A stretch of DNA of 47,382 bases from assembly GCA_903916195.1 (NCBI GenBank), contig CAIWVP010000005.1, positions 1 through 47,382 of the forward strand, given 5' to 3'. A program made the translations under genes and the position numbers. Below the pieces are notes generated by a model. That model ran no database searches. It had not been told where the DNA came from and saw nothing but the letters and a program-made list of their open reading frames with translations. Positions within the stretch are counted from its first letter, which is position 1. Each line of letters begins with the position of its first letter. Of the stretch, positions 1,228 through 7,311 are shown in pieces. The DNA is from an uncultured Verrucomicrobiota bacterium. Lineage in GTDB: Bacteria > Verrucomicrobiota > Verrucomicrobiia > Limisphaerales > UBA9464.

Positions 1228-4404
<3,177 letters not shown>

Positions 4405-4632: not shown

Positions 4633-5115
4633 TTATGCGCAGGCGATCCGGTGACCAGGGATGATCTTGCCGATGTTCTTGGCGAGCTGCTGCACGTCGC
4701 CGCCGCTGCTGGCGTCGACGAACGGGAACCTCGGGCCCTTGTCGCCCATGAAGGACTCGTCGCCGAGATGGATCATGCCGGAGCCGGTGAACCCGACGAA
4801 ATGGTCGCCGTCGGTGTGGCTGTCCGGGAAGTGGAGCCCCTTGACCTCCTCGCCGTTGAAGTGGACGGACAGGCTCTCCGCGAAGGTGATCACCGGTAGC
4901 GCGCTCTTCGGCGAGGCCGGCCCGGTCTCTCTCAGCTTCGTCCGGATCTTCTCGGCGAGCGGAGCGAACGGGTCGTCGACCCGCAGCACGCCGTCCGCCC
5001 TGCTGCTCGCGCCGATATTGCCGCCCGAGCCTTGCGGCAGGTGGACGTTTCCAGCGACGGGCGAGGACGTGACCTGGCCCTTGTCGTAGAACGAATTGCC
5101 GGAGGCCGCTCTGCC
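4633..5115 (-). pseudogene. Metallo-beta-lactamase-fold hydrolase remnant
   Basis: Resembles secreted MBL-fold metallohydrolases: the early segment GNVHLPQGSGGNIGASS ... GVLRVDDPFAPLAEKI, then FAESLSVHFNGEEV, FPDSHTDGDH, GMIHLGDESF and a C-terminal KIIPGH. Between 'AEKIRTKLRE' and 'LPVITFAES' the stretch that should carry the HxHxDH metal-binding motif is missing, and the C-terminal helix region is shortened. The frame has no convincing start: upstream it runs into the regulator gene at 5117 with non-homologous residues. I read this as a gene with internal deletions, unlikely to be a working zinc enzyme. A product that lost metal binding but kept the fold is the alternative. Confidence 0.6.
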
Positions 5116-5116
5116 G

Positions 5117-6067
5117 TCACCGCGGGCCTTGCCGCAACGGTCCGAGCGCCGCGGTGAGGTCTTCGAGGGAGGCGATCTGGGCGGCACCGATCTCCGCGAG
5201 CACCGAGTGATAGGCGCCCGCCGCCCGGCCGCCGACCAGCAGGTGGACCGCCTTGGGCAGGAGCCGCCGAAGCCGCCGGAGCTCGGCCGGAAGCATGGGG
5301 TCGTCCTCGGGATGCACCAAACTCAACGCCACCGCGAGCACACCGTGGTGGATGGCCGCGGCGGCGATCTCTTCGGCCGGCAACGACGGGGCGGCATACG
5401 TCACCCGCCATCCGTGGCTCGTCGCCGCCGCGGCGACGAGCGCGGCCCCGAGCTCGTGCAGCTGCCCGGCCGGTGTGGTGACCAACAGCACCGGCGCCGA
5501 AGGATGCAGCGTGTGCGGACGGGCCGCTTGGCAAAGGTAGGTGCGGATCACCGCGGACGCGATGTGCTCGTGCACCACCTTGAGGTGGCCTTCGCGCCAA
5601 GCTTCGCCGATGCGGCCGACCAACGGCGCGACGACCTGCGCGAGCAAGCCGATCTGGCCGAGCGACAGCGCACCTTGTTCGAGCACGCGCTCCAGGCCGG
5701 CGGCATCCATGTCCGCGACCGCTTTGAAGGCCGTTTCCAAGAGGTGCGCGCTGGAACCGCCCGCATCCGTCCGGACCCTCGTGGGGCCCGGTGCACTGTC
5801 CGCCGTGGAGCGGTCCACAGCGGAGACCAGCGCGGAAAGCCGTTCCGTCGGCAATGAGGTCACTCGGCTGATGCTGTGTCCGTGGTCCGTGACCTGCTTC
5901 AGGAGCGCGAGGCGTTCGACGTCGGCCTCGGTGTAGAGGCGTTGGTTCCCGCTCGACCGGGACGGGTTGACCGTGCCGTAGCGCCTTTCCCAGACCCGGA
6001 TGACGTGGGGGGTCAATCCGGTGCGGAGGGCGACGGTTCGGACGGTGTGTCTCAATTCAGCAGTCAA
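5117..6067 (-). CDS. MerR-family regulator with cobalamin-binding domain (CarH/LitR-like)
   Basis: Transcriptional regulator of 316 residues. Residues 8-75 form a MerR winged-helix domain (RTGLTPHVIRVWERRYG ... NQRLYTEADVERL). Residues 110-175 form the helical bundle that caps cobalamin, with W157, E167 and H168 matching the W-x9-EH motif of CarH. From about residue 190 comes a B12-binding Rossmann domain whose H204 (GQLHELG) should be the lower axial ligand. CarH proteins repress as AdoB12-bound tetramers in the dark and release DNA in light. The residue after W157 is Arg158, where CarH of Thermus has His132 as I recall, so the light response may differ. No ATG is available; TTG at 6067 fits the domain start but has no Shine-Dalgarno. 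It is divergent from a sigma-factor gene. Confidence 0.88.
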   Translation of the reverse strand: MTAELRHTVRTVALRTGLTPHVIRVWERRYGTVNPSRSSGNQRLYTEADVERLALLKQVTDHGHSISRVTSLPTERLSALVSAVDRSTADSAPGPTRVRTDAGGSSAHLLETAFKAVADMDAAGLERVLEQGALSLGQIGLLAQVVAPLVGRIGEAWREGHLKVVHEHIASAVIRTYLCQAARPHTLHPSAPVLLVTTPAGQLHELGAALVAAAATSHGWRVTYAAPSLPAEEIAAAAIHHGVLAVALSLVHPEDDPMLPAELRRLRRLLPKAVHLLVGGRAAGAYHSVLAEIGAAQIASLEDLTAALGPLRQGPR

Positions 6068-6076
6068 TGGCCGTTA

Positions 6077-6104
6077 AAGTTAGACCGGAACAAGACGGAT
6101 GCAA
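6077..6104 (-). promoter_or_regulatory. Putative promoter of the MerR/B12 regulator
   Basis: Minus-strand TTGCAT (6099-6104), 16-bp spacer, TAACTT (6077-6082). The -10 ends only 9 bases before the TTG start at 6067, so transcription would begin at or next to the start codon (near-leaderless mRNA). Found by eye only. Confidence 0.35.
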
Positions 6105-6189
6105 CTATCGTCGCCTGTTGGTCCGGAGATACGGCGGATGTCTAATAAATAAATAAACAATAAATAGACAAAAAGCTGAACCCTAGACA
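6081..6189. promoter_or_regulatory. Divergent regulator/sigma control region with TAGAC repeats
   Basis: The spacer between the divergent regulator and sigma-factor genes contains TAGAC at 6081, 6165 and 6184 and the inverted copy GTCTA at 6140. The copies at 6140-6144 and 6165-6169 flank an A/T-rich core (TAAATAAATAAACAATAAA) that stands out in this GC-rich genome. This is where a MerR-type autoregulator would be expected to bind; the operator identity is inferred, not shown. Confidence 0.35.
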
Positions 6190-6243
6190 ACCTTGGCTTG
6201 TGGTCGCTAGGTGATGTGCCGTGCAACTGGTGAAACTTCCCCG

Positions 6244-7311
6244 ATGAACCTCGATTGGATCTGCGTCATGAACCGAACCGCTTCGTCGACCAACCGGCCA
6301 CCGAGTCATGGGGACGGTGCCACTCGCCTCGCACGGATGCGTCAACCGGCGTCACGTCGGCAGGCCGGACCCACGGAGCGGATCCGACCGGTGTCCGTGG
6401 CGGCTGCCCGGCCTGCTGTCATCGTCATGCCCTGCGAGAACACCGTCGAGGCGCTCCCGGTGCTGCCTTACGAGACCAAGAGCGCGTTGACGCTCTACAT
6501 GCGCGACGCCGTCGAGGTCCCGCTGCTCACCATCGCGGAGGAGAACGCCTTGGCCGCGCGGATCAAGCTCGGCGACATGGCGGCGCGGGAGCACATGATC
6601 CGCGCGAATCTCCGGCTCGTCGTGAAGATCGCCCGCGACTACGACGGCTTCGGGCTTCCGCTGCTCGACCTCATCAACGAGGGCAATATCGGGTTGATGA
6701 AAGGCGTCGAGCGCTTCGACCCGGCCAAGGGCGGCAAGCTGTCCACCTACGCGTCCTGGTGGATCAAGCAATCCATCAAGCGGGCGCTGGCCAACCAGTC
6801 CAAGACGATCCGGTTGCCGGTCCATCTCGTGGACAAGATCAACAAGGTCCGCCGCGTCGCGATGCAGCTCCAGGAGCTGTTCGGCCGCGAGGCCACCGAC
6901 GAGGAGTTGGCGGAGGAGATGAGCGTGCCGGTGAAGAAGGTCAGGTTCTGGATGCGTTCCGCCCAGCGCACCGCCTCGCTCGACGCCCCTATCGGCGACG
7001 AGGATTCCAGCCGGCTCGCGGATGTCGTGCCCGACACCGAGGCCCGGAATCCTTTCGAGGCGCTGGAGAACCGCACGGTGCTTGAGATGCTGCGGCGTTT
7101 CCTGCCGATCCTCGACACGCGCGAGATGACGATCCTGCGCGAACGGTTCGGGTTGGAGGGCGGCAAGGAGAAGACGCTCGAAGAAATCGGCCGGACCTTC
7201 GGCGTGACCAGGGAACGCATCCGCCAGTTGCAGAACATCGCCTTCGCGAAGCTCCGTAAGCGGATCGAGGAGCACGAGGCGGTGCAGCAGCCGGAACTCG
7301 CCGCGGCCTGA
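6244..7311 (+). CDS. RNA polymerase sigma-70 family factor (primary-like, RpoD/RpoH/SigB group)
   Basis: Sigma factor that directs core RNA polymerase to promoters. It has region 1.2 (TLYMRDAVEVPLLTIAEE), region 2 with the RpoD signature (DLINEGNIGLMKGVERFD, then STYASWWIKQSIKRAL), region 3 (RLPVHLVDKINKV ... EATDEELAEEM) and the region 4 helix-turn-helix (LEEIGRTFGVTRERIRQLQ). It lacks the acidic region 1.1 and long insert of housekeeping RpoD, so it is probably an alternative group 2/3 factor. Conservation begins only near base 6450. The start is therefore uncertain: GTG 6211, ATG 6214, 6244, 6270 and 6427 are all possible, and I chose 6244 for a weak GGTG upstream. It is divergent from the B12-sensing regulator, which may control it, and convergent with acpS 9 bp away. 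Confidence 0.9.
   Translation: MNLDWICVMNRTASSTNRPPSHGDGATRLARMRQPASRRQAGPTERIRPVSVAAARPAVIVMPCENTVEALPVLPYETKSALTLYMRDAVEVPLLTIAEENALAARIKLGDMAAREHMIRANLRLVVKIARDYDGFGLPLLDLINEGNIGLMKGVERFDPAKGGKLSTYASWWIKQSIKRALANQSKTIRLPVHLVDKINKVRRVAMQLQELFGREATDEELAEEMSVPVKKVRFWMRSAQRTASLDAPIGDEDSSRLADVVPDTEARNPFEALENRTVLEMLRRFLPILDTREMTILRERFGLEGGKEKTLEEIGRTFGVTRERIRQLQNIAFAKLRKRIEEHEAVQQPELAAA

Follow-up and report, generated by a model that had tools for sequence, protein, structure and literature searches.

A CarH-type regulator gene divergent from an RpoD-like group 2 sigma factor gene in an uncultured Verrucomicrobiota bacterium: a probable light- and B12-controlled sigma switch

CarH proteins have been studied chiefly as regulators of carotenoid genes. 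In the genome of an uncultured Verrucomicrobiota bacterium, the gene for a CarH/LitR-type regulator (P0001; 5117-6067 on the minus strand, TTG start and 316 aa in the ORF list) is divergent from a sigma factor gene (6211-7311 on the plus strand, 366 aa), and the regulator carries an arginine at the position of the Thermus photo-ligand histidine. This locus raises the questions of what the regulator controls and whether it still responds to light. We analysed it in a stretch of 47,382 nucleotides (hereafter, the window), which belongs to a genome of 4.39 Mb in 211 contigs that is 96% complete (the home genome). The ORF positions given in an earlier note on this DNA, and the residues W157, R158, E167, H168 and H204 named there, agreed with the ORF list and the alignment.

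P0001 matched the Pfam families MerR_1, B12-binding_2 and B12-binding, and Pfam and structure together delimited a MerR DNA-binding domain (residues 8-69), a four-helix B12-binding_2 domain (110-176) and a Rossmann B12-binding domain (194-297). These three domains are those of class I CarH/LitR proteins, and the Trp-Glu-His motif and the lower axial His of this class are also present. In an alignment of 48 distinct CarH sequences (31 from relatives retrieved with the CarH protein as the query, the window protein and 16 from further genomes), W157, E167, H168 and H204 are invariant, supporting the earlier view that AdoB12 binding looks intact. Both by sequence and by the fold of its AF2 model (mean pLDDT 92.5, pTM 0.66), the closest structures are the Thermus CarH entries, with 5C8E and 5C8D at the top (TM ~0.54 for the whole chain and ~0.8 of target for the B12 domain alone). 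The best NCBIfam match is the CarH equivalog NF052513, yet P0001 scored 113.5 bits against a curated cut-off of 400 and lies outside that narrow equivalog. Of the SignatureFinder light signature, P0001 has GxxW, EH and GxxH but not GxxxP: it has Ala226 where 25 of 28 aligned rows have the Gly. Myxococcus CarA is described as binding its operator without needing B12 (PMC8156234), and P0001, with Arg158, might work in the same way. We regard this as extremely improbable, because the four invariant residues would be superfluous in a B12-free regulator; this argument is not decisive, since CarA itself retains a B12-binding motif.

The profile alignment placed R158 opposite His132 of Thermus CarH, in the column in which the H132A chain of that protein shows Ala. 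P0001 thus has Arg158 in place of the His after Trp on which the Thermus-type bis-His photochemistry depends. Over the 48 sequences, this column contains R in 21, Q in 11, H in 8, E in 3, A in 2, and K, C and L in one each; His is therefore not conserved in this group, and Arg, being the commonest residue, is not a rare mutation. The residue at this position is Gln in SasPcob and Tyr in AbDPcob (PMC11796333). CtMerR, which has Arg there, is reported to change from a tetramer in the dark to a monomer in the light (SEC-MALS and native mass spectrometry), and its anaerobic crystal contained no bis-His state (PMC11796333). The earlier note had read Arg158 as a possible sign of a different sensing chemistry. 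With Arg so common and with a light-responsive Arg-bearing protein described, the novelty of this proposal is lost and a chemistry peculiar to P0001 is not supported; a different chemistry may nevertheless hold for the Arg-bearing subgroup, for which it has already been published. Going by the published data, proteins with Arg may do without the bis-His light state, and by analogy the light state of P0001 is probably a CtMerR-like aquo/hydroxo form.

An alternative is a regulator that senses the supply of AdoCbl and not light, in which Arg158 would stop efficient break-up of the tetramer and the sigma factor would be on when AdoCbl is scarce. The H132A variant of TtCarH is described as mostly remaining a tetramer in the light, in contradiction to an earlier report (PMC10442372), so that Arg could weaken the light response. 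CtMerR required more light than the other proteins tested but did monomerise (PMC11796333), and A226 is a further departure from the light signature. Two R-bearing relatives of P0001 are, however, divergent from photoprotection-type genes, namely a fasciclin gene and a phytoene-desaturase-like amine oxidase gene in L015 and a squalene/phytoene synthase gene in L027. We consider sensing of AdoCbl supply alone unlikely, while noting that the two signals are hard to part, because photolysis also removes AdoCbl. Judged by its sequence, P0001 looks like an ordinary CarH-type photoreceptor with a residue variant already in print.

The divergent sigma factor gene is listed with a GTG start, and an in-frame ATG at 6244 or 6268 may be the real start. 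Pfam detected sigma-70 regions 1.2, 2, 3 and 4 in its product, with no match to region 1.1, which is the composition of a group 2 sigma-70 factor. ECF sigma factors of the LitS type consist of regions 2 and 4 only, and the presence of regions 1.2 and 3 sets the window sigma apart from them. Its RpoD_Cterm score was 269 bits against a cut-off of 354, so that it lacks the combination of an over-cut-off RpoD_Cterm match and a long N-terminal part that marks the primary factor RpoD; the RpoS cut-off was likewise missed. Two sigma paralogues in the home genome (on contigs C54 and C151) are also under both cut-offs. A further, more distant sigma factor, 43-49% identical to that of the window, was found in 14 of 19 genomes searched (585-706 aa in 12, cut short in 2), and we take it for the real primary factor. 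The 96%-complete home genome yielded no such long, primary-like sigma, and neither did 4 others of the 19; in the home genome, this is perhaps due to an assembly gap. On the basis of the sub-cut-off scores and of the longer sigma in relatives, we call the window sigma a group 2 factor; the earlier description of it as primary-type is borne out by its sequence but not by its likely role, since a primary factor was rejected on the same two results. Regions 2.4 and 4.2 match SigA closely, including the RERIRQ motif of region 4.2, and promoter choice may therefore overlap with that of the housekeeping factor.

The pairing of the two genes extends well beyond the window. With CarH as the sole query, 31 relatives were retrieved, and a sigma gene lies divergently upstream in 23 of them (1.8 kb away in L020), which makes chance a poor account of the arrangement. 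In the enlarged set, a divergent sigma is present at 35 of 48 CarH genes, the window included, and the other 13 have no sigma gene within the flanking stretch examined. In a quick tree of 57 sigma factors with SH-aLRT supports, the window sigma falls in a clade of 18 members, all CarH-linked (support 96). Other CarH-linked sigmas form separate groups, and the CarH-link label needs 4 changes on the tree versus 18 in shuffles, so that there may have been several gains or losses of the link. Within the home family, CarH is present in 20 of 24 genomes. Both proteins were used to search 12 family genomes, and in 11 of these the presence of CarH agrees with that of a sigma at least 67% identical (7 have both and 4 neither, one of these being merely 54% complete); the remaining genome, G011, has CarH only. 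This identity line fails outside the family, where order members without CarH have sigmas 66-68% identical (in G026, G028 and G030, with 68% in G026 and 67% in G030) that group with unlinked paralogues in the tree. One genome (G009) has two CarH genes (contigs C31 and C27; L047 and L105), one with a sigma gene and the other beside amine oxidase and DUF1365 genes. In two genomes titled Gemmatimonadetes (L022 and L023), the sigma encoded divergently from CarH is less closely related (39% identical), and the pairing is possibly an independent one.

The spacer between the two genes (6068-6243, or 6068-6210 if the sigma gene starts at the GTG at 6211) is the proposed operator and promoter region. 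In the CarH operator as described, three or four copies of the 11-bp direct repeat nAnnTnnACAn stand in tandem (PMC8156234). A match to this pattern, the tandem 11-bp direct repeat TAAACA/TAGACA, is present at 6154-6170 on the plus strand, as expected next to a class I CarH/LitR gene, and a further half-site, TAGACA, lies at 6184-6189 on the same strand and points to the sigma gene. Between the repeats and this half-site, a weaker TGAACC was read by eye at 6177. The pattern TDRACANNWNNTDRACA has a single match in all 4.39 Mb of the home genome, located between carH and the sigma gene, and the reversed-pattern control has none. No sigma-70 promoter passed a consensus scan of 6040-6330.

The same repeats recur upstream of other CarH genes. 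We compared 46 CarH upstream regions of 300 bp with 300 runs of shuffling that kept dinucleotides. The motif T[ATG][AG]ACA pointing away from CarH occurs 155 times (24 in shuffles, maximum 39), whereas that pointing towards CarH occurs 32 times (19 in shuffles). Outward pairs exactly 11 bp apart number 49, against a shuffled mean of 0.05 and maximum of 2, and 30 of the 46 regions hold at least one. Every tandem pair found in the 48-sequence set is directed at the divergent gene and away from CarH; the downstream control regions hold no such pair (0 of 49 rows). Of 33 second repeats, 25 have the A that the consensus demands three bases before the T. Across 39 loci (318 kb, including those of the home genome), all tandem matches fall in CarH upstream regions, with 0.5 expected by shuffling. 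A strict tandem pair is lacking within 450 bp in 17 of the 48 upstream regions, including 10 of the 35 sigma-linked ones (in L012, 45 bp only were available), and looser repeats were seen by eye in L029 and some of the others.

Away from CarH, the operator pattern is in no general excess: in 24 family genomes, 38 of its 53 matches lie at such sites, and the reversed-pattern control gave 41. Individual distant sites at L104, L111 and L112 look real, judging from the motif and the gene behind it, and that at L113 was set aside, as its repeat points away from the one gene there that could be named. L112 belongs to genome G018, in which the sigma gene is on contig C4 and carH on C135, and the repeats lie just upstream of the sigma start. 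In the tree, the G018 sigma sits on a long branch as the sister of the window clade (support 94, not starred). Synteny cannot explain these repeats, and G018 is therefore the best single evidence for the sigma gene as a target, although it is one case picked after the search.

These findings also bear on a reading in which CarH mainly controls itself, or photoprotective genes elsewhere, and the sigma gene is a little-affected neighbour on a shared promoter region. In L015, L027, L028 and L031, what lies divergent from CarH is indeed no sigma gene but fasciclin, phytoene-synthase or phytoene-desaturase-like genes. The home genome, on the other hand, holds one tandem operator site alone, the detached G018 sigma keeps its repeats, and all listed tandem pairs point from CarH towards the divergent gene; we consider this reading highly unlikely. 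The conserved synteny, the operator-like repeats and the G018 case together support what the earlier note had drawn from the divergent placement, and CarH very likely controls the divergent sigma gene through the spacer repeats.

With regard to possible outputs, CarH or its repeats in relatives adjoin genes for phytoene-desaturase-like amine oxidases, phytoene/squalene synthase and fasciclins, as well as fatty-acid desaturase, short-chain dehydrogenase and polyketide-cyclase-type genes. Such photoprotective neighbours are the company expected for CarH. Fasciclin (FAS1) genes recur under CarH (L104:4303-4794, L111:3264-3866, L015:4035-4538 and L028:4076-5050). In G009 and G011 (L104 and L111), tandem CarH-type repeats lie upstream of fasciclin genes far from carH, and in L015 and L028, one of which is from a genome titled GN15, the fasciclin gene is divergent from carH. 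The algal FAS1 protein AstaP is reported to bind carotenoids (PMC10147662). No fasciclin gene was found in the home genome, and direct carotenoid control was set aside for it, as crtI had no match over the cut-off there. The home genome has two squalene/phytoene-synthase genes (one beside a hopanoid-like gene, by eye), two photolyase-type genes and a DUF1365/cyclopropane-synthase cluster.

A cluster of desaturase, amine oxidase, DUF1365 and cyclopropane synthase genes adjoins CarH in some relatives (L021:6192-10852 and L105), and parts of it occur alone on home contig C96 (L145); the desaturase, amine oxidase, CMAS and DUF1365 were identified by search, and some other parts were named by eye. 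The DUF1365/cyclopropane-fatty-acid cluster on C96 is not supported as a marker of the sigma regulon, because 23 of 39 genomes have DUF1365, all four CarH-less genomes of the same genus among them, and the DUF1365 loci examined contained no tandem repeat. The other B12 user that the earlier note had pointed out, nrdJ (1228-4404), adjoins P0001 in the window, with a 184-aa ORF between them (4633-5187, minus strand; part of a metallo-hydrolase by eye, no Pfam match). None of the 31 related CarH loci has nrdJ in flanks of up to 5 kb, and on this ground a functional partnership was rejected and the adjacency taken as accidental.

Taken together, P0001 and the divergent sigma factor quite probably form a sigma switch under the control of light and B12. 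With AdoCbl bound, CarH would in the dark form a tetramer on the tandem 11-bp repeats in the spacer and cover the sigma promoter, perhaps along with its own. Light, or lack of AdoCbl, would break the tetramer and free the sigma promoter, and the group 2 sigma then made would redirect RNA polymerase to a regulon for light or photo-oxidative stress. Dark repression, release by light and the identity of the regulon are what we infer from this arrangement. We give about even chances to a broader proposal, that in a large part of the Verrucomicrobiota B12-based light sensing acts through an RpoD-like group 2 sigma and light thereby resets transcription broadly. In the home genome, CarH would then have no direct target with a tandem operator besides the sigma gene, and the response, in the absence of crtI, would be something other than carotenoid making, such as membrane lipid change or DNA repair.

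The less ordinary feature of this locus is thus the predicted circuit, in which CarH acts on a group 2 sigma factor and which is conserved along with its operator. Among the open-licence literature matches listed, none pointed in its title or the opening of its abstract to a verrucomicrobial CarH paired with a group 2 sigma, and no paper combining Verrucomicrobi-, CarH and carotenoid was found in the open-licence literature. A conserved pair with operators readable from the sequence offers a testable light response in this phylum. In addition, the residue at the photo-ligand position varies naturally among these CarH proteins (Arg, Gln, His and others) over a single type of operator, which makes its role testable.

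Among known systems, CtMerR (PDB 8JBS/8JBT) resembles P0001 as a B12-binding MerR-type regulator with Arg at the His132 position; its DNA-binding domain, however, shares only 25% identity with the TtCarH domain, and an alternative DNA-binding site has been proposed for it (PMC11796333). Thermus thermophilus CarH (PDB 5C8D/E/F and 8C31-37) shares with P0001 the domain order, the fold, the W/E/H/H residues and the 11-bp direct-repeat operator, whereas P0001 differs in having Arg for His132, a divergent sigma gene and only ~30% identity. The window sigma resembles group 2 factors such as RpoS and actinobacterial SigB in being RpoD-like, in having no region 1.1 match and in carrying RERIRQ in region 4.2, but it falls below the RpoS and RpoD cut-offs and adjoins a B12 repressor. 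The sigma partner known for CarH is of the ECF type. In Streptomyces coelicolor, the B12-type regulator LitR is paired with the ECF sigma LitS, which relays the light signal. The logic of that pair resembles that proposed here, but LitS is an ECF factor, whereas the window sigma is RpoD-like and includes regions 1.2 and 3.
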